A stretch of 64,000 nt of DNA, taken from the IMG/VR virus record IMGVR_UViG_3300025030_000004, positions 62,001 to 126,000 of that record. One strand, 5' to 3'. The notes under the pieces were generated by a model. The model was not told where the DNA came from. It worked only from the letters and a program-made list of their open reading frames with translations, and did no database searches. The position numbers and the translations under genes were made by a program. This DNA is from a virus. Shown piece by piece: positions 5,626 to 37,920 of this stretch. Numbering within the stretch: the stretch's first letter is position 1; every line of letters starts with the position of its first letter.

Positions 5626-7128
5626 TTATAAATATATCCAAACTAATTTTGTTCCATTTTGTAATGCACCTGCTGATTTTTGCTTGTTTGTACAACATGA
5701 ATATATATTACCTACTTTGATGCTATATTTAACTCCAGCTTCTATTGCAGAGTCAAACACTTCTTCTGTAGTTATACATTTAACTTTTTTTGATCTTTCC
5801 TGATTTCTTTTAATAAACCCTACTAATCTTTTTTCTTTTTCTAATTGTGGATCATATTCGCACCAACCTAATTCAGTTCCTTGTTTTAAATATTTTCTAA
5901 TAGATTTTCTTCCTAATTTTAATATTTTTGCAATGTTTGTAACATTTTTTGTACCCTTATTCCATTCATCACATGCTAACTTAACCATGCTTTTAATTCC
6001 TGCTTCATAGCACTTCAACCAATTTATATCTTCTTCCTTAAAATTTAATAGTATAGGTAATTCACTGCTCATTATGTTATTTTTTATCCATTCCATTGTA
6101 GAATATCTACAATCAATAATAATATAATGATCTATTTTATGTTCTTTAGCTAACTGTTCTTTTTTTCTATCATTTTCTTGTGTTTCTGTTAATCTGCTCC
6201 ATTTTCTACTATTTTCTTCATAATGTTGAATTCCATGACATTCACAAATTCCATTTATATCATCTAGATAAAAATCATATCTATAATCTTTACACCATTT
6301 AAAAGTCTTTTTTGTTAATTCTGTTTGAAATATTTTATTTAATTGTTCAAATAAATTATATGTAAATTTCTGGGAGAAACTTATACCATCACTGCAACGA
6401 GAGCATCCGAACCCTTGATGGAGAAAATGAGAAATGCTTATTGGTTTTTCAAATTTACAATTAGGACATTTCATTAAAATTTTTTTATTTGAACCTGCTG
6501 ACACAGACAACGCATCTTCTTTGTTTACTAAAAATTTTACTAAATGAGGATGAGTCATTGAAATTGTATTACATTGATTGCAAGTAATACTTCCTTTATT
6601 GCCATGTGTAAAACTATTGATATTCTTTTGTTCAGATTTATGTTTAGGGTGATCTAAACATTTGAACCAATATCCTTTTTGATTTAAAGTATTAGAACTA
6701 TAACTTACATCTTGAGGTCTAATTACATTACCATATTCATCAACATTTAACTCATAATCCCATCTGGATATTATATAATCTGCTACTTCTTTTGATAAGT
6801 TTTCGTAGCACCAATCATAGAAAGATATACTGTTTTTTAATCTCGTTTTTATCATTTTTATTGTACCAAATAATTTTATAGCACATTTAAGACAATAATA
6901 TTTTCCATCATTATGTATAGACCTTTTATAATCTTTCCACCTAACATTTTTTATCTCTTCTCCACACAAATCACATTTAATATTAATCAATGACACAGAT
7001 CCTTTAGATAAATCTTCTACTTTTACTTCAAAATTATCTCCTAATTTTGTATAAATGTATTCTTTTTCTTCATACCATGCTTTGTTTCTTCCATTCCACT
7101 TAACAATTGCAGTTTTACTAATCAACAT
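5626..7128 (-). CDS. Vsr-like homing endonuclease with zinc ribbons
   Basis: The 500-residue protein has an N-terminal CxxC pair domain (C52/C55, C79/C82 region), further zinc-ribbon pairs (CNQC, CPNC, CSRC), then a PD-(D/E)XK/Vsr-type nuclease core (RYDFYLDD, CECHGIQHY, then ENDRKKEQ) and a C-terminal NUMOD-type DNA-binding repeat (CITTEEVFDSAIEAGVKY). This layout is known for free-standing phage homing endonucleases related to Vsr. AAGGAAGGGG precedes the ATG. A branched hairpin lies just upstream. Its N-terminal domain resembles that of the HNH endonuclease at 59.9 kb. Confidence 0.75.
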   Translation of the reverse strand: MLISKTAIVKWNGRNKAWYEEKEYIYTKLGDNFEVKVEDLSKGSVSLINIKCDLCGEEIKNVRWKDYKRSIHNDGKYYCLKCAIKLFGTIKMIKTRLKNSISFYDWCYENLSKEVADYIISRWDYELNVDEYGNVIRPQDVSYSSNTLNQKGYWFKCLDHPKHKSEQKNINSFTHGNKGSITCNQCNTISMTHPHLVKFLVNKEDALSVSAGSNKKILMKCPNCKFEKPISISHFLHQGFGCSRCSDGISFSQKFTYNLFEQLNKIFQTELTKKTFKWCKDYRYDFYLDDINGICECHGIQHYEENSRKWSRLTETQENDRKKEQLAKEHKIDHYIIIDCRYSTMEWIKNNIMSSELPILLNFKEEDINWLKCYEAGIKSMVKLACDEWNKGTKNVTNIAKILKLGRKSIRKYLKQGTELGWCEYDPQLEKEKRLVGFIKRNQERSKKVKCITTEEVFDSAIEAGVKYSIKVGNIYSCCTNKQKSAGALQNGTKLVWIYL

Positions 7129-7161
7129 AAATCTATCCCCTTCCTTAATAGGTCATAAAAA

Positions 7162-7232
7162 TAGGGAAAGACACTCAAACTCTAAGGAAAGTCCAAGTGT
7201 CTTAATTACACTCAATCAGGTATCGATCCCTA
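7162..7232 (-). ncRNA. Branched three-way-junction hairpin, leader of endonuclease gene
   Basis: An outer stem TAGGGA/TCCCTA encloses two hairpins that abut it directly: AAGACACT/AGTGTCTT (7168-7203) and TCAAT/ATCGA (7212-7226). On the minus strand it is followed by a T run. It lies about 35 nt upstream of the endonuclease start. It could be a branched terminator or a regulatory leader. Confidence 0.55.
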
Positions 7233-7323
7233 AAAGAGCAACCATAAAATTGTAAAAACAAAACAAAACAAAAAAAACACCTATCTCTAGATGCTTCAAA
7301 TGTGTCCGTAACGGACATAATTA

Positions 7324-9174
7324 TTAATTATCTTTTCTAACAATAATCTTAGGATAACTTCTAGCAGGACAATCAATATTATATTTCTCTTTAATGTCTT
7401 TATTAGCAGTTATCTTAACCAAACCATAACTATCCAATATTTCTTGAATACTACGTTTCCATTGAGTTTCAGAAGTATTATTAACCTTTAAATCCTTCTC
7501 TAAGACATATCCTTGTGCTTCTATGCCACTCATTATGTATGTAGCTAATATATTGCTATTATCATCAGATTTCTCAGTAGTACCTTGCTCATTTTCATAA
7601 ACATATTGAGGGAATACTCTATTAGTAAACTCCATTCCGAATGTCCTTAATAAATATTCCCTAGATAATCCCTTTAAAGATATATTATGTTCCTTTAATA
7701 CAATAGCAATTTTATTACTTTCTTCCAATGAATTAACACCATATGAGTCAATACTATAGAAGTTAGTCAATTTTTTATGCTTGTATTTAGCAGCAATATG
7801 TTTTGCTTTCTTGAGTGTATCTTCTGGTAATTTTTCATGAGGTATTTTATTCAATAAACTTAACAAAGTAAATAAAGTAACACTCTGAGATACTTTGGTT
7901 TTATCCTTTGAGTCAAATACATCCATTAAATTATTTAAAGATATAAAGAATAAAGGGTTTCCATCCACACTAAAATCTTCTTTTTTAACATTCATTTTTG
8001 CAAGATTGTTCAATGCAATAAGATTGGATTTTCTAGTTCTAATTAAAGAATATAATTGTGGATATATTTCCTTAAATTCAGCCGATAATAATAATTCAAT
8101 ATTCGTATCAAGTATTTCTATTTGTTCCTTTTGCCATTTAGTTTGTTGGAGTTCGATATTATACACTTTCTTAATAAACTCAATAGCTTTAATTCTTTTA
8201 CATTTAGCAAGTTTCTCTACTAATGATATTATTGTATATTTAGCTCCACACCCAAAACATTTATATATTTGTGTACCACTATTAGTTTCATAGATATGGG
8301 CAGAAGGAGTATCGTCTTGATGGTCTGGTAATATGCAATTTACTGTTCCATAAATATTTGTAAAATCACATAAATCAATTTTATTCATAAAATCATATAC
8401 TTCTTGTTTATTTATGCATATTATTTCCTCATCATTATCAATATTTAAAAGTGATTTCATCAAAACTATATCAAGAGATTTTATAGCTTCAATATTAGAA
8501 AAATACCCTGTAACCGTTGGGAGAGTAGCAACGTGAGCTTTCTCCATACTGATAGAAGAAGAGTTTAGTGTATTAGTATTGAGAAAGCTCAGAGTGTCCT
8601 TAGAAGTACCATTAACCTTAACTTTAATAAGAGAAGAAATTAGAGTATTTAAAACATCTTCAAATCTTACCATAATATCACCAACATTAATTCTATTTTC
8701 ATAATCACATTCAATTAAACCCTTACCTCCAAAGAATAGTCTTGTAGGATCAAATGTCACGCTGTCACTATTAGGAAATAATTCAATTAATAACTTTTGA
8801 AAATTATTTCTTATTTCAACATCAATGATTATTTCTTCGCTACAAAATACTAATCTAAATTTCTCCTTATATTCTGTATAAGAGAAAGTCTTATACCCAA
8901 ACACAGGTTTAATACCTAATTCTTTACATCTTTTTAATTCATTATTTATAGTTGTTCCTTCGTCAAAATCTAATGCAAATATCTGTTGACTTACCCAATC
9001 TTTACTTTTTGTTCCATTAAGTAATGCAGGTTTAAATGTTGCTCCATTACACAATAAATTTGCCAATTCTTCAATTTTAATTTCTGTTTGAGACATTCTT
9101 TTCTGAATTCCACCTGATTCTGCTCCACTTGGTTTCTTTGTAAATGTCTTTTTGTCTAACATACATTTAATCAT
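7324..9174 (-). CDS. Primase-like protein (AEP-type N-terminus, CHC2-type zinc finger)
   Basis: The N-terminal third has a DxD-type motif (FALDFDEG) and a DPTRLFFGG segment as in archaeo-eukaryotic primase-like domains. The middle has a CHC2-type zinc finger (C..PDHQDDTPSAH, then YKCFGCG) typical of DnaG-like and phage primases. It probably makes primers or is a replication initiator. It sits apart from other replication genes, downstream of lysis genes and an endonuclease relic, behind a structured leader. ATG 9174 is preferred (AGAGAG 9 nt upstream); ATG 9183 is possible. Confidence 0.65.
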   Translation of the reverse strand: MIKCMLDKKTFTKKPSGAESGGIQKRMSQTEIKIEELANLLCNGATFKPALLNGTKSKDWVSQQIFALDFDEGTTINNELKRCKELGIKPVFGYKTFSYTEYKEKFRLVFCSEEIIIDVEIRNNFQKLLIELFPNSDSVTFDPTRLFFGGKGLIECDYENRINVGDIMVRFEDVLNTLISSLIKVKVNGTSKDTLSFLNTNTLNSSSISMEKAHVATLPTVTGYFSNIEAIKSLDIVLMKSLLNIDNDEEIICINKQEVYDFMNKIDLCDFTNIYGTVNCILPDHQDDTPSAHIYETNSGTQIYKCFGCGAKYTIISLVEKLAKCKRIKAIEFIKKVYNIELQQTKWQKEQIEILDTNIELLLSAEFKEIYPQLYSLIRTRKSNLIALNNLAKMNVKKEDFSVDGNPLFFISLNNLMDVFDSKDKTKVSQSVTLFTLLSLLNKIPHEKLPEDTLKKAKHIAAKYKHKKLTNFYSIDSYGVNSLEESNKIAIVLKEHNISLKGLSREYLLRTFGMEFTNRVFPQYVYENEQGTTEKSDDNSNILATYIMSGIEAQGYVLEKDLKVNNTSETQWKRSIQEILDSYGLVKITANKDIKEKYNIDCPARSYPKIIVRKDN

Positions 9175-9215
9175 TTTTACCATCTCTCTTTCTTTGTTAC
9201 TCTCTAAAAAGGTAA

Positions 9216-9277
9216 ACTAGCAAGATAGGGGAGAGTACCCTTTGATGATGATTCATGAGGTCATCACTCTTGCTAGT
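9216..9277 (-). ncRNA. 62-nt structured leader element, copy 1
   Basis: The outer stem ACTAGCAAG/CTTGCTAGT (9 bp) encloses a GGG-CCC hairpin and a TGATGA/TCATCA hairpin with a 9-nt loop. It aligns without gaps to 33791-33852. Three base pairs differ between the copies, each by paired changes. It ends about 42 nt before the downstream start codon, and the same AGAAAGAGAGATG leader follows in both copies. Direction is inferred from the downstream gene. Confidence 0.7.
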
Positions 9278-9301
9278 CATATTTGTGTAATATTTCAACA
9301 C

Positions 9302-9331
9302 AAAAAATCTCATTCTTAATAAAGAATGAGA
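9302..9331 (-). terminator. Rho-independent terminator
   Basis: A perfect 11-bp stem (ATCTCATTCTT and complement) is followed on the minus strand by TTTTTTG. It lies just downstream of the endonuclease relic. Confidence 0.8.
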
Positions 9332-9352
9332 TTACTTCTATTGAAATTTAAC

Positions 9353-12573: not shown

Positions 12574-13563
12574 TTATTGCACAAAACATTTTTTATATGT
12601 ATGATTAACGTGATCATCTGTAACTTGACAATAAATTTGAGTGGTTTTTGGATCGCTATGCCCAAGAATATTTTGGACTGTACTTAAATCACAATTATTA
12701 TTTAGTAAAAGTGTTGCAGTTGTGCTCCGCATGACATGTGGGTGGAACTCTTTGTTTATTCCACAATTGTTTAATATTGTTTTAAATTCTCTTTGAATAC
12801 CACGTTTTGATAATCTTCTATATGGTTTTCTCTCTGTAATAAATAGAGCAGGGTCATTGTCCGTCCTAGAATTTATGTATTTTTTCATTTGAAATATTGC
12901 TTTATATCCAAAATACACATCTCTCTGTTTATCGCCTTTGCCAATTACTCTAATTTTCATATTTTGCCAATCAATATCCGTAAAACGATTAATATTATAA
13001 ATTTCTGATAACCGACACCCCGTAGCATAGAAAACTTCTATCATTGTTTTTTGGCGTGGTGTTTTACAAGACTCTCTGATCTGTTCTAATTCTTCTATTG
13101 TCAAGGCTTTAGGTAATCTCTTTTCTTTCTTTGGATTTTTTATTTTGCTAGTAGGGTCTGACAGAATTATTTCCTCATTCTTTAACCAACTTAAAAAACT
13201 TTTTAAAACAGATATTCGCCTAGACAATGAACTAGTTTTTAATTTATCCCACTTACTTAAATACATTCTAATATCATTAGTACTAATATCTTCGACTCTT
13301 TTCTGGACATGTTTTGCAAATATTGACAATTCTAATTTATAACTTTTTAATGTTAACTCACTTAACCCCTCTAATTTCTTACCTGATAAAAATAACTTAA
13401 TTTTTTCTTGTAAGTCCATACATTCATTCCTATATGGGGATATTATAGAGATATTATATTTGGTTAATATAGTATTTAGATTATGTAATTGGGACTCTGT
13501 ATTTATTAATGGAAAGTTCTCCATTATTTCTTGTTGTAATAGTTCATTGTAAATGTTTGGCAT
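12574..13563 (-). CDS. Tyrosine recombinase (phage integrase)
   Basis: The 329-residue protein has an N-terminal SAM-like core-binding domain and a complete catalytic set: R184 (ATGCRLSE), K209, H276 and R279 (HVMR), H302 (LGHSD) and Y311 (IYCQ). It probably integrates or excises the prophage. ATG 13563 is chosen because AAAGGAG lies 8 nt before it and the promoter lies further upstream. The promoter is flanked by a 20-bp motif shared with the control region at 35.7 kb. It has its own terminator. Confidence 0.9.
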   Translation of the reverse strand: MPNIYNELLQQEIMENFPLINTESQLHNLNTILTKYNISIISPYRNECMDLQEKIKLFLSGKKLEGLSELTLKSYKLELSIFAKHVQKRVEDISTNDIRMYLSKWDKLKTSSLSRRISVLKSFLSWLKNEEIILSDPTSKIKNPKKEKRLPKALTIEELEQIRESCKTPRQKTMIEVFYATGCRLSEIYNINRFTDIDWQNMKIRVIGKGDKQRDVYFGYKAIFQMKKYINSRTDNDPALFITERKPYRRLSKRGIQREFKTILNNCGINKEFHPHVMRSTTATLLLNNNCDLSTVQNILGHSDPKTTQIYCQVTDDHVNHTYKKCFVQ

Positions 13564-13587
13564 AGCACTGTCTCCTTTCTCATAAAA

Positions 13588-13616
13588 AGTATACCATACT
13601 ATGCCATCAATTACAA
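13588..13616 (-). promoter_or_regulatory. SigmaA-type promoter of the integrase gene
   Basis: On the minus strand TTGTAA and TATACT are 17 bp apart, with a TGG extension before the -10. Confidence 0.65.
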
Positions 13617-13617
13617 A

Positions 13618-13637
13618 CAAACTAAAAATAATTAATT
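13618..13637 (-). promoter_or_regulatory. Candidate operator, 20-bp motif, integrase copy
   Basis: The minus-strand sequence AATTAATTATTTTTAGTTTG is identical at 20 of 20 positions to plus-strand 35663-35682. It ends 1 bp upstream of the integrase -35 element, so a bound protein would block or affect that promoter. Confidence 0.65.
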
Positions 13638-25420: not shown

Positions 25421-26568
25421 TTATATCCCTCCTTAGACAAAATTAAATTCTTATTTAAAAGATAACTTTCTAAAATATTTTCAATCTTATCAAAATCACA
25501 ATACCATATTTCTAAAAAATTATATTTGTTTAATAAAGTATATTCTTTTTTGCGTCTATCATGTTCAACTTGTTTTTCAAAATCTTTTTTTGACTTATGA
25601 AGACCTTTTTTATATTTCTCGTGTTGAACCCCTTGATACTCAATTAATAGACTATGTTCTGGTAAATAAAAATCATAAGAAAGTAATCCACTACCCAATC
25701 CTAATAACCCTTTAAATTCTTTTTGCGGTTCATAACAAATACTATTATTAACCAACCATTCTTTAATTCTCTTTTCGCCTTTTGACTTATTGCATTCTGG
25801 ACAACCACGACCAGAACTTCTGCTTTTTATTGTGGAATCCCATTCGTGTTCACATTCAAAACATTTCCACCAAACTTTTCGTCTATCATATTTAACTACA
25901 TTAAATGGAGTTAAATCTCCGTTTAAACTTGGATGCCATTCTTTTGCTAATTCTGGATTCTTTGTTGCCAAACAATTAGATATCCCAATTTGTCTACTAT
26001 CACATGCTCCACAACCCATTCCTTCTATGATTCTATTCCAAGTAGCTTTAAAAGTCTCTCCACATTTAGGTTTTAAACACCTCCATTCTAATTTTTTCAT
26101 AGAAGTTTCATATTTATCACTAATTAACTCAAATGGTTTACTATTCAATTCACACCAGAGTTTGATATTTTGAATTGAAAAATCATTTGATGGATATGCT
26201 ATTGGAAAACTTCCATGTTTTCGATTGTCACTCAACATTGTCCAACTCATTGAAAATAAATACCCAAGTTTATCTTTTAAAACTAACCTTGAACAACTAT
26301 TTGTATATACATTTGACAATAATTCTAAATTTATATTATTTACTATTAGATAAAGATTAATGTTTTGTATTGTATATGGATTCGAACAATGAATATATGA
26401 AGGTGGATATCCTTGATTTAAACTATCTAAACTCACTTTATAATAATACCCTATTTTATCTGATATGGTTATTGGTGTTCTTATATTATTATATTTAGTA
26501 TCAATTAAATTATATCCTAAGTCTTCAATAATCTCTTTAACTTCTTCATATTTATATTTTTTACCCAT
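25417..26568 (-). CDS. Vsr-like homing endonuclease with zinc-ribbon (DUF4379-type) modules
   Basis: The 383-residue protein has two N-terminal repeats of about 70 residues (LGYNLIDTKYNNI.., then NLELLSNVYTNSC..), zinc ribbons (CLKPKCGETF, CGAC, CFECEHEW, CPEC) and a Vsr-like nuclease (LSYDFYLPEHSLLIEYQGVQ then EHDRRKKEYTLL and FLEIWYCDFD). It is a close paralog of the gene at 40986-41942. ATG 26568 has AAAGGAGG upstream. It lies between tape measure and baseplate genes. Confidence 0.8.
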   Translation of the reverse strand: MGKKYKYEEVKEIIEDLGYNLIDTKYNNIRTPITISDKIGYYYKVSLDSLNQGYPPSYIHCSNPYTIQNINLYLIVNNINLELLSNVYTNSCSRLVLKDKLGYLFSMSWTMLSDNRKHGSFPIAYPSNDFSIQNIKLWCELNSKPFELISDKYETSMKKLEWRCLKPKCGETFKATWNRIIEGMGCGACDSRQIGISNCLATKNPELAKEWHPSLNGDLTPFNVVKYDRRKVWWKCFECEHEWDSTIKSRSSGRGCPECNKSKGEKRIKEWLVNNSICYEPQKEFKGLLGLGSGLLSYDFYLPEHSLLIEYQGVQHEKYKKGLHKSKKDFEKQVEHDRRKKEYTLLNKYNFLEIWYCDFDKIENILESYLLNKNLILSKEGYK

Positions 26569-26615
26569 TTTATCCTCCTTTATAATATCCTCATAAAAAA
26601 TAAACAAAACAAAAA

Positions 26616-26671
26616 GCAGGGAAGAGGAGGATTCTCTTATCGGTGAGTTAATTACTCTCACCTATCCCTAC
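26616..26671 (-). ncRNA. Branched three-way-junction hairpin before endonuclease gene
   Basis: On the minus strand an outer stem GTAGGGA/TCCCTGC (one G-U) encloses GGTGAG/CTCACC and AAGAG/CTCTT hairpins and is followed by TTTTTGTTTTG. It lies between the tape-measure stop and the endonuclease start, like the element at 7162-7232. Confidence 0.55.
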
Positions 26672-26706
26672 AAAATTTTAAAAATTATTTAATTAATTAT
26701 TATTTT

Positions 26707-29700
26707 TTACTTATATTGATGAACCAAAGTAGGTAATAAATCTATGAACGAACCAGCATCTTGTGTTTCGACTTTAGCGATATTGATATTATATGTATTA
26801 ATTGGAGAAGTCGGACTATTATTAATTCTACTGAAATCTGGCACTTTAAGAAGAGAAATATTGCTTAAAATATTCTGCATATAATTTAATGGATTTGCAC
26901 CTAGCGCCATAAGATTTTTAGTTATACTTGTTGGAATAATTCCATCACCTTGGTTTAATACACGAAGTTCTGCTCCTTTTTCTCCAACTAAACTCAAACC
27001 TCCTGATGCGCTTTCCGTACCATTAGCATATCTAGGTGTTGTTCCTGCTGCTATTGCATTTCCATTTGAATCGTATTCAGTCCAACCATTTGGGCCATTG
27101 TTATAGACTATTGTGTTTCCACCAGATGAACTATTAGAACTGCTACCGGAATTTAAACTATCTGGTAAATTTGTGCTACCAGCATTTATAGCTGCTAACT
27201 GAGCATTTAGTGTAATTAATTTTTCAGCTAAAATTTTTACCGCGTTATCAACATTAGAGCCAAATTGTTCTAGCATTTTAGTTGACATATCATCAATATT
27301 TTTCCATTGCTCGTCAAAGATTTCTTTTTGCTTTTCGAAGGATTCTTCGCGTTTGTCTATTAATGATTGTTGATAGTCAATTTCAGCTTGAAGTATAGCT
27401 TTTTTATGTTTTAGATCATTATCTTCTTCCCATTCTGCATAATCTTCTTGGAGATTTTTTAGATTTTCATTTGCTTCTGCAACTTTTTGAGGGTTGGCTT
27501 GCCAAGTCCAAGTGTCACCAACGAGGATTCTTGTGTCTTTTTCCTTGGAAAGGTTGTTTAGATTTTGTTTTGCTTTCTCAATGTCGAGGAGACGTTTGGC
27601 TCTTTCTTCTTGTTCATTTTCGATATCTGCTTTCTCTTCTAGTGCATCTATCTCTTCTTGGATTCCTTTGATTTTAAGTTCTTTGCGAGTGATGTAGGAT
27701 TTTAGGGATTTTTCTTCTATGTCAAGTTCTGATTGGGCTAGTTTTTTTGTTGCTTCGATTACTTCTGTGGAGAGGGTTTTGGAAAGGTCGGAGAGAGATG
27801 TTTTGAGTTCGTTTTGACTTTGGGTGAGATCTTGGATTGCTGTGGAGTTATCAGACCAAGCTTTTTTGAGCTTAGAAAGGGAATCAAAGGTGAGTTTCAT
27901 TTGGTCTTGAGTTTCTTTAGATGAGGAATTGAATTTGGAAAGGTAGGTTAGTGTTTGTTCACCATTTTGATCAAACCAGAGGGAAGTGTCGGAAAAGCCG
28001 CTGGATTGAGAGGTTCTTGCAAATTCAGATTCTAATTTTTGTTTGGCAAGACCTAGTTGTTGGATCTGGGTGGATTGGTTCGATAGCAAAGATGTCGTTA
28101 ATTCAAGTTCTTTTTGATAATTTTTTTGAGATTTTGCTTGAGAGAGGTCTGTTTCTATTGATTTTGATTTTGTGGCTGTTAGATTAGATTCGACTTGAAT
28201 CAATCTAATCGTGGCATCGGTGAGAGATTCGTAGGATGGATCGTTTTTGGATGAAGATTTGGATGAGGAACCTGATGTATTTCCTGAAACCCCACCATTT
28301 AAATTTGGGATATCAGGAGTGTCTATACTAGTCCCACCTAAACTATTTAATTGCTCTAATAATTTACTAATTTTATTGCTTTTTTGTTGATCATAAAAAG
28401 ACTCAATTTGATTTTTAATTTCGTCATAAGCTTTAGCGTTATCAGGAGTTGGATTAAGTTTATAACGAGCATAAATTAGTTTTTTTTCGATCCATAATCC
28501 ATTTTCTTGAAGTTTACCAAGAATACCATAAGCTTGCACTGCACTATCTATTTGTTTAATTTGAGTTATTATATTTCTTCTTAGATTATCTGTTTGTTGA
28601 GAAACTAATTTTGACGAATTTTCATATGCAATTTTTTCAGCATTTTGTTTTTCTTGTAAAGCTTGAATAACTATATTTGAAGCATCTTGACTAAAACCTG
28701 CTGCTTTAAGTCTATTCAATGCTTCTTGACCTATAATGTTTCCCAATTCTTGTTCTGAATTAATAATAGAAGCATTTATATCTATTTTTTTACTATCCGT
28801 ATCAGCTAATTCAGAAGAACTCTTTTCTAACTCATTCCTAGTATCTATTAATTGTTTAGTCCTTTTAATATCTTCTTCATATTGAGAAGCTAATGCTTTA
28901 TGAGTTTCTGCTTCCTTTTGAATAGATTTAATTCGCTCTTCTTCAATTTCATTTAATTCTTCGTAATCACTTTTCATATTTCCCAACATTGGTAATAAAA
29001 TATCATATGCAGAAACCAATGTTAATACGGCAACAGCAATAAAACCAAAAGGATTTGATAAAAACGCAACTTTTAAAGCATTCATACTTAAAGTCAATCC
29101 ATTTGTGGCAACTCCAGTAGAAATCATACCTGCTCTAAATCCTTGAGCAGCAATAATTGACGTTCTAAACCAATTAGTAAGATTTGTACCATTAAATATT
29201 AATATTGCAGTTGTAACGGCAATTATTATAGTTCTTAAATTACCAAAGGTATCAATAAGATATGATAATGAATTAAGTCCACCTTTAATAAAATCAGTAC
29301 TGATAGAGGACTGCCAAAAAGTCTCCCAACTAACTCTCAATCTATCCAAGGAGGCTGCACTCGATTCTTGATAGATTGCAAATTTTTCTTCTGCTGTTCC
29401 AGCAGCATTCAATGCATTTTCATAATTTTTTAAAGAATCTTGATAATTATTTAATAAAGTTATTCCCCTATTTCTTTGAAAAGTTCCGAACATAGTGGTA
29501 GCTATATATGCTTTCTCATTTTTGGAAAGACTGCCAAATTTCTCTCCGACAGTATCCATTATTATTGCGAAATCCAAGAGTTGACCTTGAGAATCCGTTG
29601 CTTTAATACCAACGTCTGAGAGAGCTTTTACTACATCATTTATTTTCGTCTCATCTTCTGAATTAAATCCAGTCTTTTTTATACTTTCATATCGGCTGAT

Positions 29701-32900: not shown

Positions 32901-32984
32901 TTATTTTTTACCAGAAGATTCAAACTCTCCAACTGGCTTCTCTTTCCCACAAATCTTACAAACTTTAGTCTTGATTTCTTCCAT
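32901..32984 (-). CDS. 27-residue zinc-knuckle peptide
   Basis: ATG GAA at 32984 opens a peptide MEEIKTKVCKICGKEKPVGE then FESSGKK. The VCKICGKEKPxxEF pattern matches the first half of zinc knuckles found before HNH domains. It may be a remnant of a larger gene or a real micro-protein. Its ribosome site (GAGATGG) is modest, and a structured element lies about 50 nt upstream. Confidence 0.45.
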   Translation of the reverse strand: MEEIKTKVCKICGKEKPVGEFESSGKK

Positions 32985-33036
32985 CCACAACCATCTCGCT
33001 TTCTATTATTTATTTACTCGCCTTAAAATATTAAAA

Positions 33037-33100
33037 ACTAGCAAGAAGATGTGCGAGTTACATCTAATAACAGATGATCAGTCTGCTGTCTCTTGCTAGT
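33037..33100 (-). ncRNA. 64-nt structured element, related outer stem
   Basis: The outer stem ACTAGCAAG/CTTGCTAGT is identical to the element at 9216-9277, but the inner arms differ (AGATGT/ACATCT and CAGA/TCTG). On the minus strand a T run follows. It lies downstream of the GIY-YIG gene and upstream of the 27-residue peptide. Confidence 0.6.
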
Positions 33101-33133: not shown

Positions 33134-33739
33134 TTATTTATATGTTCCCTTGAAATTCACAACGTTCCAAATGGTTACTTGTGAAACCAAATATTTTTCT
33201 GATAATTGTGTTAGAGTAACTATCCCTGTATTGTATTTATTCCTAATTTCTGCTATTTGATTGGTGTCGAATTTTTTCTTTGCTATACTAATATTTTCTT
33301 TGTGTTCTATACTATGTAGTTTGCCTTTCTGTGCATTGCTCATATTTACTCTAACATTTTCTGATCGAGGTCCAGTCATTTTAAGCCTAGTTTCATCAGA
33401 TAAATGTATTCCAGATGTGGTTCCTCCACCAAAACAGATATTATAATAATTATTATCGTTAACCGCATTATGTAAATTAATTAATTCTATTTCTAGATCA
33501 TTTAACTCTTCCTTTGAATAAGCTATTGCAATTATTTCTCTATAAAAGTTTTCTTTCCCGTATTTATTTACTGCTCGTTTTAATAATTTCCCACTGCCAA
33601 TATATTTCTTCCATCGTTCCCTAAACATTTTTTGTCCAATGTATTTCTTTCCATTAATCATATTTGTTGTAATATAAATAAAACCATATGGATCTAAAAT
33701 TTTTACCTCATCAACTTTTTTTACCCTAACATTTTCCAT
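33134..33739 (-). CDS. GIY-YIG homing endonuclease
   Basis: The 201-residue protein has GFIYIT (19-24) and KKYIGQK (31-37) as the GIY and YIG motifs, then a conserved RAVNKYGKENFYREI helix and E-LINLHNA. The C-terminus has NUMOD3-like (ENISIAKKKFD) and helix-turn-helix (LSEKYLVSQVTIW) DNA-binding parts. It is flanked on both sides by related structured elements (33037-33100 and 33791-33852). Confidence 0.85.
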   Translation of the reverse strand: MENVRVKKVDEVKILDPYGFIYITTNMINGKKYIGQKMFRERWKKYIGSGKLLKRAVNKYGKENFYREIIAIAYSKEELNDLEIELINLHNAVNDNNYYNICFGGGTTSGIHLSDETRLKMTGPRSENVRVNMSNAQKGKLHSIEHKENISIAKKKFDTNQIAEIRNKYNTGIVTLTQLSEKYLVSQVTIWNVVNFKGTYK

Positions 33740-33790
33740 TATAAAATCATCTCTCTTTCTTATTAGCTCTCATTTTTGGGCATATAAAAT

Positions 33791-33852
33791 ACTAGTAGGA
33801 TAGGGGAGAGCACCCTTTAATGATGGGTAATTAATCCATCACTCCTACTAGT
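33791..33852 (-). ncRNA. 62-nt structured leader element, copy 2
   Basis: It has the same length and fold as 9216-9277. The outer stem is ACTAGTAGG/CCTACTAGT and the arm is TGATGG/CCATCA. The core GATAGGGGAGAGyACCCTTT (plus strand) is conserved. Differences in stems are compensatory. It lies about 50 nt before the endonuclease start. Confidence 0.7.
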
Positions 33853-33931
33853 AAAACTTTCAATATTAAATTGGATATAAAACTGTGGATGCGACAGGGT
33901 GTGTTTTGCCACCCACCTATAATTCAAACAA

Positions 33932-33959
33932 AAGAACCCACCTAAAATAGTGGATTCTT
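33932..33959 (-). terminator. Rho-independent terminator of the antirepressor operon
   Basis: A 10-bp stem AAGAATCCAC/GTGGGTTCTT (one G-U) is followed on the minus strand by TTTTG. Just beyond lies GGGTG/CACCC, a further small hairpin. Confidence 0.75.
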
Positions 33960-33995
33960 TCCCTTAAATATGCTATAATTTACTTGCACATAATT

Positions 33996-34709
33996 CTAAT
34001 TGGCTTGCTTGAGTAGCAAGTCTTTCTTTTTGCTCTTTTCTAATCTCTTAAATATATACCCCAAACCTCTAGGTGTAACCAACGTCACTGGAATATCCAC
34101 AATTTTTCCTTCAATAATTTTAGTCTTAATTACCACAACAAAATATCCATTCTCGACAAATTGTTGATAAGGCATATTATGCTTTTCTTTACCTGACATT
34201 AAAATACCTTCAGACCTTAGAAACCGAAACAACTTATTTCTACCATTCAACTTTAAGGCTTTTGAAACCATTAACATAGACATACAATTCTCTGCATTAA
34301 TAACTTGTTCATAAAGTTCTAATTTCGGTTTACTTTCTTCTAATTGTCTTTTAACTAATTCAAGTTCATTTTTGCGAATACCTTCAAGTAAGTCCCAAAC
34401 CCAATCCATAAATACATCTGCTTTTGGTTGTCTACTCCAACGACATATTTCATACACACCTTTGGCATTATATAGATATACATCTTGTTTACCACCAAAG
34501 GGTAGGTCAACTTGGGCTATCCTTGAAAACTTATCAATTCTGTCAAAGTTTCTTTCGTGAATTTTCCGTATTGCATTTGATGGATTGATATATTCTAAGG
34601 CTCTACCAATTTGCTCTCTCGTTGTAAAAATTTCATCATTTGAATTCTTCCAAAAATCACATTCAATACCTTGGAAATTTTCTGACTTGAACAATACTAA
34701 ATCACTCAT
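33996..34709 (-). CDS. BRO/antirepressor-type protein
   Basis: The 237-residue protein has an N-terminal BRO-N domain (WKNSNDEIFTTREQIGRALE, then YNAKGVYEICRWSRQPKA) and a C-terminal KilAC-like region (KALKLNGRNKLFRFLRSEG, then a GLGYIFKRL end). Such proteins bind DNA or repressors and promote lytic growth. ATG 34709 is chosen because GGTGAG precedes it; it overlaps the previous gene by 8 bp. Confidence 0.8.
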   Translation of the reverse strand: MSDLVLFKSENFQGIECDFWKNSNDEIFTTREQIGRALEYINPSNAIRKIHERNFDRIDKFSRIAQVDLPFGGKQDVYLYNAKGVYEICRWSRQPKADVFMDWVWDLLEGIRKNELELVKRQLEESKPKLELYEQVINAENCMSMLMVSKALKLNGRNKLFRFLRSEGILMSGKEKHNMPYQQFVENGYFVVVIKTKIIEGKIVDIPVTLVTPRGLGYIFKRLEKSKKKDLLLKQAN

Positions 34710-35184
34710 CTGTCTCACCATCCTCACAACCAAGGATTTCTGCGAGACAATCATCACACAAACTTAAATCAAGTTTTTCTCCGTCAAATCTGCTTAAATA
34801 ACCACCATGACCACTAACACTCCATATTTGTTCCATCGCATTCGTATTAATTACCTTCTGGCATTTACAACATCTGATTTTCTTTTCATCCAAACAAAAA
34901 TCAATACGCCCATCTTTTAACAAGATACTGAAAACAGAATCGAATATTGAATCACTTTTCATATAAAGTATTTTTTCAATATCTGCTTTAGTAATATGAA
35001 GCTCTTGTGGAATATCTTTTTCTGTATCATAAAACATAATAGTATTATCATTTCCATTCATATCAAATGAAAACTTTCGATAAGTGTTTTCTGACCATAT
35101 TGGTGAAATTCCAACCGAAACTCGTTTATAAATATAATCCTCTAATAAACTTCCCATCTCTTGATAATTGATTTCTTGATACAT
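34702..35184 (-). CDS. Unknown protein with C-terminal zinc-finger cysteines
   Basis: The 160-residue protein has CCKC near residue 105 and CDDC near residue 143, a spaced zinc-binding pair. It is the first gene of an operon with the BRO-type antirepressor and has its own promoter. The 3' end overlaps the next start. Function not recognised; a regulatory role is likely from context. Confidence 0.65.
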   Translation of the reverse strand: MYQEINYQEMGSLLEDYIYKRVSVGISPIWSENTYRKFSFDMNGNDNTIMFYDTEKDIPQELHITKADIEKILYMKSDSIFDSVFSILLKDGRIDFCLDEKKIRCCKCQKVINTNAMEQIWSVSGHGGYLSRFDGEKLDLSLCDDCLAEILGCEDGETDE

Positions 35185-35943: not shown

Positions 35944-36741
35944 ATGTTAAATGAACTACAAGTCTTCAATAATGAATTATTTGGTCAAGTAAGAATAATA
36001 TCCCTTGAAGAAAAAGAATATTTTGTTGCCAAGGATATCGCAAACGCACTAGGTTACAGTAATCCAAGGGATGCTATTATTAGGCATTGTAAGGGTGTCG
36101 TGAAACACGACAGCTTTAAAGAGGGTGGAAATACGATATCTCTAATATTAGAGGGTGATGTTTATAGATTGATAGCAAGATCAAAACTTCCAAAAGCAAT
36201 CGAATTCGAATCATGGATATTTGATGAAGTTCTTCCAACAATCCGCAAACATGGTGCTTACATGTCGGAAGAAGTAATTGAGAAAACCCTTACCGATCCC
36301 GATTTTATTATCCAATTGGCAAATCAACTTAAAGACGAAAAACAAAAACGAATGATTGTTGAACAGCAACTTAAAGAAGCACAACCAAAACTAGATAAAT
36401 ATGGAGTGTTTCTTGATACTGAAGGTACATACACATTTGAACAAACCTCTAAGATGATTAGTACAAGAAGCGAAGAGGAGGGAAGTAGAATCAAAGTCAA
36501 TAAGAAATCATTAACCAGTATTCTTAGAGATTATGGAATTCTTAGTAAAAATAAGACTAATGGAAGATATAGAAATCTGCCAAATGTAGGATACGAGAAC
36601 TATTTTAATATTTGTCATGAAATTGTTGATAATAGAGACGATATTGATTCCGAGCAAACAAGAGTAAAGACGGTTGGGATTGATTATATTTATGATTTGC
36701 TGTTGGAGAGTAAGGAAAAGGGATTAGTTGTTTTTGGTTGA
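35944..36741 (+). CDS. Phage antirepressor (BRO-N plus KilAC)
   Basis: The 265-residue protein has a BRO-N domain (YFVAKDIANALGYSNPRDAI, then ARSKLPKAIEFESWIFDEVL) and a C-terminal KilAC-type domain (KKSLTSILRDYGILSKNKTN). Phage antirepressors disable a repressor and start the lytic cycle. It is driven by the rightward promoter, whose -35 is covered by a candidate operator, and ends at a strong terminator. Confidence 0.88.
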   Translation: MLNELQVFNNELFGQVRIISLEEKEYFVAKDIANALGYSNPRDAIIRHCKGVVKHDSFKEGGNTISLILEGDVYRLIARSKLPKAIEFESWIFDEVLPTIRKHGAYMSEEVIEKTLTDPDFIIQLANQLKDEKQKRMIVEQQLKEAQPKLDKYGVFLDTEGTYTFEQTSKMISTRSEEEGSRIKVNKKSLTSILRDYGILSKNKTNGRYRNLPNVGYENYFNICHEIVDNRDDIDSEQTRVKTVGIDYIYDLLLESKEKGLVVFG

Positions 36742-36844: not shown

Positions 36845-37894
36845 TTATTCTTCTACAATATCTTCTTCCAACTTTTGTTGCTTTTCTTTTTCTTTATCTA
36901 TCTTTAATTGTTTTAGCTCATTAATTTTATCTCTAAGCTCAGATTTAGATTTAGGTTTAACATAAATAAGCGTGGTATCTGTAGATTTATGTCCGGCATG
37001 CTGTTTTGCCAACTCAATATCATTAGACAATTGCATGATATTATTTATAGAAGTCTTTCTGAAACAATGCATATGAAAATCTTCAATGCCAACTAATTTA
37101 CCAATTTTCTTTGCCCTATCTTGTAAAGTGCCATAAGTCATTGGATGAAGTTCCCCATTAAATTTAGTCATAAATAAAGAATCAACTTCAAGATTATCTA
37201 ATTCTTTTCTCATTTCTAACCATTGTACTATATAATCTTTACATTTCTGATCGAATACTACTTCAACTCGCTTCCCACGTTTCTCTCTAATATCAGTAAA
37301 CATCATATTATCTAAATCCATAGATGATAATGTAAGTTTAGAAATAGCTCCAACACGGTTAGCACTATCAATAGCAAGATGAAATAATATTCTATCTTGT
37401 ATATCGTACTTGGGATTTTCGTCAAGTTCCTTTGAAATTTTCTCTATTTGTTCCTCTGTTAAAAAATAATCCTTAGTAATGCGTTCATCACTCGCACCTT
37501 TCATTCGCTCAATTTTATCTTTAAATGGATGATATTCTATGAGCTTCCGCTTAACTGACCACCCATAAAAAGAAGATACAGCAGAAACTTTTGTATTAAT
37601 TACTTTTTTATTATTTTGTAATGTGTCTTGGCAAAATACCATAAATCCTTCCATAATATCAATTGCATTTTCAAAGAATTCTTTGTCATATAAATTAACG
37701 TTATTCCACTCTTCGGCGAGATACACTAGGAATTGTTGCATAAAATTTTGATAAGTTTTATATGTAGTTTCTTCTACTTCTTTATTTTTAAGTATGCTTG
37801 ATTTAAGGTATTTATTATAAAGAGCAATATTCTCAGGATTTATAAGTTTGATCTTGTCTTCAGTAAAGTATTTTATACGAACTACTTTTGCCAT
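36845..37894 (-). CDS. Second tyrosine recombinase / recombinase-fold protein
   Basis: The 349-residue protein keeps the catalytic set: R180 (SANRVGA), H276 and R279 (HCFRKT), H302 (AGHKS) and Y311 (LIYVK), plus lysines near 205-208. It may be a second recombinase. In SPbeta the master repressor MrpR has this fold, so a repressor role beside the control promoters is a fair alternative, though complete active-site residues favour an enzyme. ATG 37894 is preferred to GTG 37906, which is too close to AAAGGA. Confidence 0.75.
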   Translation of the reverse strand: MAKVVRIKYFTEDKIKLINPENIALYNKYLKSSILKNKEVEETTYKTYQNFMQQFLVYLAEEWNNVNLYDKEFFENAIDIMEGFMVFCQDTLQNNKKVINTKVSAVSSFYGWSVKRKLIEYHPFKDKIERMKGASDERITKDYFLTEEQIEKISKELDENPKYDIQDRILFHLAIDSANRVGAISKLTLSSMDLDNMMFTDIREKRGKRVEVVFDQKCKDYIVQWLEMRKELDNLEVDSLFMTKFNGELHPMTYGTLQDRAKKIGKLVGIEDFHMHCFRKTSINNIMQLSNDIELAKQHAGHKSTDTTLIYVKPKSKSELRDKINELKQLKIDKEKEKQQKLEEDIVEE

Positions 37895-37920
37895 TTTTGG
37901 AATCACATCCTTTATATTAA

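Follow-up and report, generated by a model that had tools for sequence, protein, structure and literature searches.

A candidate family of three-way junction RNA leaders with a palindromic loop and SD-matching sites before phage homing endonuclease and other genes

A compact RNA of about 62 nt, folding as a three-way junction and read from the minus strand, is present in three copies in the window, i.e. in the whole 64,000-nucleotide stretch of viral DNA analysed here. We consider it likely to be a leader controlling translation in cis, able to occlude the SD of the gene behind it, with homotypic kissing dimerisation predicted for one of its loops. The leader family, counting about 35 relatives from phage contigs of Bacillota type and from a single sequenced isolate, Geobacillus virus E3, appears to be new, its pairing model having strong comparative support; searches of the literature (open-licence papers) found no description of it. 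Most of the elements precede genes of free-standing homing endonucleases, which, as selfish genes, need to keep their expression in check; by what means most of them achieve this is, as stated for T4, an open question (PMC2988022). As a recurring unit, the module accompanies endonuclease families unrelated to one another (GIY-YIG and HNH among them); the base pairs predicted by the pairing model are specific and testable to the level of single-base swaps at three sites.

Copies in the window and their anatomy

The original prediction described two elements, at 9216-9277 and 33791-33852, of equal length and alignable without gaps, which was confirmed (both 62 nt, 49 of the 62 positions identical). 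Their number has, however, to be raised to three, a search of the full 166,652-base virus record containing the window having revealed a diverged copy at 33037-33100, with P1 as in copies 1 and 2 but a different P2 and P3 (type C). All three lie on the minus strand, as do all their parts given below. The order from 5′ to 3′ is a P1 arm, the P2 hairpin, the P3 hairpin, the second P1 arm, a U-rich spacer, the decoy, a second spacer and the SD block; P1 is the long closing stem, P2 a hairpin with a palindromic loop and P3 a hairpin with a loop complementary to the SD as well as to a copy of it located upstream, the decoy.

In copy 1, P1 is formed by 9277-9268 with 9225-9216 (ACUAGCAAGA/UCUUGCUAGU), P2 by 9267-9261 with 9251-9245 (GUGAUGA-CCUCAUGAA-UCAUCAU) and P3 by 9241-9238 with 9230-9227 (AGGG-UACUCUC-CCCU). 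The P2 loop, of the layout 2+6+1, holds the palindrome UCAUGA (9253-9258) as a predicted kissing site, and the P3 loop UACUCUC (9231-9237) is antisense to two sites: it matches the decoy GAGAGUA (9198-9204) over 7 bp and, over 5 nt, the GAGAG (9188-9184) of the SD block GAAAGAGAG (9184-9192), which lies inside AGAAAGAGAGAUG and is close to the extended SD AGAAAGGAGGUGAU. Copy 2 has the palindrome UAAUUA (33828-33833), the P3 loop UGCUCUC (33806-33812), the decoy GAGAGCU (33765-33771)—six of its bases pair, the C matching the G of the loop—and again the SD block GAAAGAGAG (33751-33759). In copy 3, the palindrome is UGAUCA (33075-33080), whereas the P3 loop AACUCGC (33053-33059), the decoy GCGAGUA (33015-33021) and the SD block GAAAGCGAG (32995-33003) have all changed in step with one another as compared with copy 1. 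Each of the three copies is followed by the SD motif AAAGNGAGATG, of which the whole virus record has no other occurrence.

The paired stem changes noticed originally between copies 1 and 2 are real: in the outer stem, C-G is replaced by U-A at one position and A-U by G-C at another, and in the P2 arm an A-U pair has become G-C. That outer stem has 10-11 bp rather than the 9 bp given. A core of 20 nt had been called conserved and single-stranded; its conservation holds (0 chance matches expected), but it is largely folded into the hairpin P3 (AGGG-loop-CCCU). The two downstream partner sites and the palindrome of the P2 loop had been overlooked. Both copies fold far better than shuffled sequences (z −4.5 for copy 1 and −4.4 for copy 2, 0/200), and both are covered by the covariation of the family.

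The common leader AGAAAGAGAGATG stands before the start codon at both copies, and the genes that follow do differ, as originally noted: copy 1 is succeeded by a primase-like gene (7324-9183, minus strand; Pfam Zn_ribbon_DnaG) and copy 2 by a GIY-YIG homing endonuclease gene (33134-33739, minus strand; Pfam SegE_GIY-YIG). Copy 3 precedes a short homing-endonuclease-like remnant ORF (32901-32984, minus strand), the 27 residues of which resemble the N-terminus of the HNH-type endonucleases behind two of the homologous leaders (L021 and L044), its own leader being intact.

Concerning the transcript signals, terminator-like hairpins are found on the minus strand close upstream of copy 1 (9306-9333) and copy 2 (33930-33961), which suggests that a separate transcript begins with the leader; near the window copies, scanning for the sigma-70 consensus gave no more promoter sites than shuffled sequences did. 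A short inverted repeat, GTGTTGWAAAT..ACACAA, occurs directly 5′ of P1 in the window (9277-9300) and at L043, L008, L061, L080, L095, L106 and L104; it belongs to the group with primase, helicase and 404-aa genes, located behind a terminator-like hairpin, most endonuclease leaders being devoid of it. It should also be mentioned that a homing-endonuclease-like gene at 5626-7128 has a structured leader of its own (7129-7260, minus strand; z −4.7), a long hairpin whose loop UUUCCUUA is complementary to the SD region UUAAGGAA; without a clear decoy or P2 palindrome, it is possibly a variant or a degenerate relative of the three-way junction leader.

Covariation, loop matching and the palindrome among close homologues

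Scans with the conserved core, with P1 and the SD leader only, without constraint on P1 and with three type-specific patterns gave 24 distinct close members, the three window copies included. Further homologues with covariation, on which the original prediction had made its case depend, thus exist: in the alignment of the 24, 93.8% of the cells are paired and 16 of the 22 pairs have changed on both sides, values reached by none of 500 shuffles, and sliding the helix partners along the alignment makes the pairing fall clearly. On the minus strand, which is also that of the downstream genes, the same 24 sequences contain G·U in 46 cells versus A·C in 16, counts by which the plus strand was rejected as the RNA. 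A role at the level of DNA—as a transposon end, a recombination site or the target of a restriction enzyme or endonuclease—would be in line with the adjoining homing endonuclease genes and with palindromic tetramers that resemble restriction sites, but the same G·U and A·C counts on the mRNA strand, the constant orientation, the regular location ahead of start codons and the matching to the SD make it highly improbable.

A known RNA family was rejected as well, none reaching the gathering threshold of Rfam 15: the window gave no match, eight homologous loci gave tRNAs only and a permissive search yielded matches at chance level only. Originally, a new RNA with a function in regulation or processing had been considered; regulation accords with covarying homologues lacking an Rfam match, whereas processing gained no support here.

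The P3 loop, the decoy and the SD agree with each other in all 24 close homologues (types A, C and T), whereas after reshuffling the decoys and SDs among the 24 sequences a mean of 4.8 and, in 200,000 trials, a maximum of 15 agree, it being understood that such shuffles ignore relatedness and that recombination can shift the loop-decoy-SD block as a unit, so that the covariation events are fewer than the sequences. In two scans that did not require this agreement, one with both the loop and the decoy unconstrained and the other with the three N left free, every junction-bearing sequence agreed at all three places. Chance origin was rejected, since the hits of the P1-free scan that have no junction matched in all three places just once. 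The orthologues of the primase-like gene represent internally matched types A (window), T (L104) and C (L061), and so do those of a 404-aa gene, with types A (L304), C (L080) and T (L490); only five decoy bases pair in L304, L090 and L106.

Apart from one extra base, N, the SD block AGAAAGNGAGAUG looks like the extended SD of Bacillota, AGAAAGGAGGUGAU. If the block pairs with the ribosome like AGAAAGGAGGUGAU, N is a bulge, and the covariation of N with the loop therefore argues for pairing between the loop and the SD: the ribosome should be indifferent to N, while the loop should not. Within a genome, the loops fit their own sites better than those of the other elements, near-identical pairs excepted, which shows the action to be in cis. 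For the loop-decoy and loop-SD pairings, much the same energies are predicted (about −6 to −13 kcal/mol in either case), and prediction favours neither as the resting state. The decoy as the SD of a leader peptide was also considered and rejected, inspection having found no consistent AUG at SD distance past the decoy.

As for the second loop, its central tetramer is palindromic in 24/24 aligned members, with six different tetramers, even though these members were found without regard to P2. When the tetramer halves were re-paired at random, on average 6 and at most 15 were palindromic; with the seven distinct hexamers taken as units, the observed palindromicity is attained in 2 of 5040 permutations. 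The hexamers are perfect palindromes in 19 of the 24 sequences, always at the same position; two palindromes, AGGCCA and UGAUCC, have an imperfect outer pair. The commonest palindrome, UAAUUA, would form a weak plain duplex (−0.4 kcal/mol); kissing complexes are usually stabler than plain duplexes. Seven loci returned by a P2-blind scan for the UUGAGG type have a near-invariant leader in which the palindrome alone is swapped (UUAUAA, UCGCGA, UCAUGA). These observations lend moderate support to homotypic kissing dimerisation through the P2 loop. Orthogonality of the palindromes inside one genome is suggested by the fact that most of those occurring together differ, although L013 and L034, present in one contig, both have UAAUUA.

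The palindrome also bears on a simpler possibility, namely a monomeric pseudoknot sequestering the SD, in which the loop-SD pairing alone would matter, the decoy would be a folding trap or kinetic buffer and no dimer would form. Its merits are the complete covariation of loop and SD and the fact that sequestration of the RBS is the known mode of T4-type homing endonucleases (PMC2988022); since it fails to explain 24 palindromic tetramers of six sequences, or the palindrome swaps in a near-invariant leader, we regard it as unlikely. Taken together, comparison of the homologues shows selection acting on the junction, on the palindrome and on the match between the loop and its two sites.

Distant members, downstream genes and the phages

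Confinement of the element to the phage of the window was rejected, relatives being present in other phage contigs. With the covariance model R2, a virus contig of 178 kb (G015, IMG record 2833096052) proved to contain a second element; its loop, CCUACAC, has two matching GUGUAGG sites downstream, the second of which lies within GAAAGUGUAGG. Then there is a descriptor free of letters, consisting of P1, P2 with a palindrome and a P3 loop antisense to two downstream sites, with upstream sites as the control; it covered about 6 Mb in all. In 4.8 Mb, the loci of the known members included, it gave 44 palindrome matches downstream versus 10 upstream, the former including further distant types: UUGGAGG (L041), AAGCGAGU (L397), UGUCGG (L550) and UUGAGG (L552). 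A further member is probable at L551 + 257, with the P2 loop UUCGAA and the loop AUUCCGAU, complementary over 4-5 nt to the decoy and the SD. In another 0.8 Mb, the descriptor located an element in Geobacillus virus E3 (KP144388.1, about 27248-27317), directly before GP35, with the loop CAACUCCC, both the decoy and the SD being GGGAGUUG, and the P2 loop AC-UGAUCA-C; E3 is one described phage suited to studying the leader. The distant members have kept the triple complementarity despite a complete change of letters. On the minus strand of another contig (L609 in G009, index about 29), a leader-like structure was seen with the P2 loop AGUAGCUA and the SD AAAGAAGG, its P3 and sites not being clear.

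In the cultured phages Twort, SPO1, vB_BcoS-136, KKP_3916 and MSShimriz1 (0.69 Mb) there was no convincing member, the palindrome matches being 3 downstream versus 5 in the upstream control, which indicates that the descriptor does not invent members. The cultured phages Perkons, SPR and FADO likewise gave no convincing member, and 93 pattern matches in genome contigs left zero elements after filtering. Model R2 found none in 399 genomes of the phylum of a Bacillus genome (G023), a weak negative in view of the strict filters. Nucleotide searches of INPHARED for the ACTAG type were empty or at chance level, phage and plasmid searches for the E3 type returned E3 itself only, and a protein search for relatives of the primase one fragment. 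Weak matches of model R1 in related contigs (L149-L156) were read as chance.

The decision between decoy and SD might instead be taken by a metabolite, or by a phage or host protein, binding the junction as in a riboswitch or a protein-responsive leader, the palindrome being incidental or a protein contact. Such a reading could account for conserved junction positions outside the helices of the close members and a conserved G·U or A-U pair closing P2, as well as for several kinds of phage genes downstream; the distant members (E3, D2, D4 and D5), however, share almost no junction letters, unlike ligand pockets, and a ligand would leave unexplained why the loop is hypervariable and nevertheless a palindrome in every case. 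We therefore find it improbable and prefer SD occlusion in cis with predicted kissing.

All distant members precede genes of the homing endonuclease family (GIY-YIG, HNH, HNH_repeat and related PHROGs). Among the close ones, GIY-YIG genes follow the elements in the window (33134-33739), L013, L034, L111 and L375, HNH or homing endonuclease genes L021, L044, L430 and L378, and an HNH_repeat gene L090; primase-like genes are found behind those in the window (7324-9183), L104 and L061 and helicase-like ones behind L008 and L043, the remaining members preceding the 404-aa gene of no assigned function or a few broken or very short ORFs. The genes at L104-3581 and L439 have weak or function-unknown matches only.

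The phage of the window is a Bacillota-type siphovirus with a terminase 44% identical to that of Psychrobacillus phage Perkons and about 40% identical to those of SPbeta-like phages. It looks temperate, given its two integrases and two Ant-type antirepressors (12574-13620, 36845-37906, 33996-34757 and 35944-36741). In the same phage record, a TnpB/OrfB-like reading frame was seen by eye (L005, record positions 25883-28911 of G000).

Proposed mechanism and comparison with known systems

The mRNA would fold at its 5′ end as the three-way junction, its P3 loop being antisense to both the SD and the decoy. With the loop on the SD, the ribosome site would be occluded (OFF), whereas with the loop on the decoy the SD would be free (ON); a single molecule can form only one of the two pairings at a time. 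Through the self-complementary P2 loops, a transcript could kiss a second copy of itself, or the full mRNA a short leader RNA. The kissed complex would have two P3 loops and, where the partner is a leader-only RNA, the mRNA would supply exactly two sites, the decoy and the SD, so that two loops would face two sites, which would account at once for the palindrome and for the doubling of the site. At slightly less than an even chance, the palindrome restricts pairing to the same transcript or its released leader, this pairing sets whether P3 sits on the SD or on the decoy, the endonuclease mRNA senses its own concentration without a protein and palindrome swaps create orthogonal specificities. 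Were the palindrome indeed a kissing site, the leader would constitute a self-titration circuit made of RNA only and a source of ready-made orthogonal RNA parts.

A variant of this best explanation is a small RNA derived from the leader: a stop or cut in the U-rich stretch would free an RNA of 62-70 nt, which would kiss the leader of a read-through mRNA and cover its SD in trans with its own P3 loop, the loop of the mRNA being placed on the decoy. The balance of two loops and two sites would suit it, with the palindrome enabling the leader RNA and its own mRNA to recognise each other. The U-rich stretch past P1 would also be appropriate for release by termination or cleavage, the T fraction in the 12 nt past P1 having a mean raw value of 0.60 and TTTT being present in 22/32 cases. 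The stretch is, however, not uniform, the P1 of the ACTAG group being A+U-rich and the U run absent in several members (L104a, L304 and L013), and we consider this variant somewhat unlikely.

Among the closest known systems are those of the T4-type homing endonucleases, in which hairpins sequester the RBS and late promoters release it; these hairpins (I-TevI/II/III, segB and Aeh1 mobE) have in common with the phage leader the class of genes, the SD/RBS as the target, for the leader a proposed one, and an expected restriction of translation (PMC2988022). There, a single hairpin holds the RBS in one strand with the late promoter within it, whereas here the junction is separate, with an antisense loop, a decoy and a palindromic second loop; the SD does not lie in the stem of a local hairpin but about 20-60 nt past the closed junction, matching the loop. 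A homing endonuclease downstream applies to most of the elements and all the distant ones, not to the primase, helicase and 404-aa cases, and no sequence relation to the T4-type hairpins was found.

The DIS of HIV-1 has a 9-nt loop with a central 6-nt palindrome in the 2+6+1 layout. The phage leader is like it in the 9-nt loop, the layout and the location in a hairpin of a 5′ leader, and a central self-complementary 6-mer was found here in 19/24 hexamers, with tetramers in 24/24. DIS forms a kissing-loop hairpin (PMC7357161), and the two differ in context; moreover, the palindrome of the phage leader is hypervariable between genes and often A+U-rich, its dimer being a prediction. The pRNA of phi29 contains a three-way junction. 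Like the leader, it is a phage RNA with loop-loop self-association, seen in its kissing dimers (PMC7357161) and predicted in the leader. In pRNA, nevertheless, two different complementary loops build head-to-tail rings in the packaging motor, whereas here an mRNA leader has a loop antisense to the SD.

SAM-II and preQ1 are translational riboswitches with SD-sequestering pseudoknots. They share with the leader a loop that pairs with or near the SD, from which the leader differs in having no conserved ligand pocket or Rfam match and in having a decoy and phage endonuclease genes. GOLLD and ROOL have been linked to phages. Together with OLE, they are natural RNA homo-oligomers, large and free-standing (PMC12286853), in contrast to an mRNA leader of ~62 nt. 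Against this background, the architecture of a decoy combined with a palindrome appears new to us, the proposed SD occlusion itself resembling the known RBS hairpins of T4.
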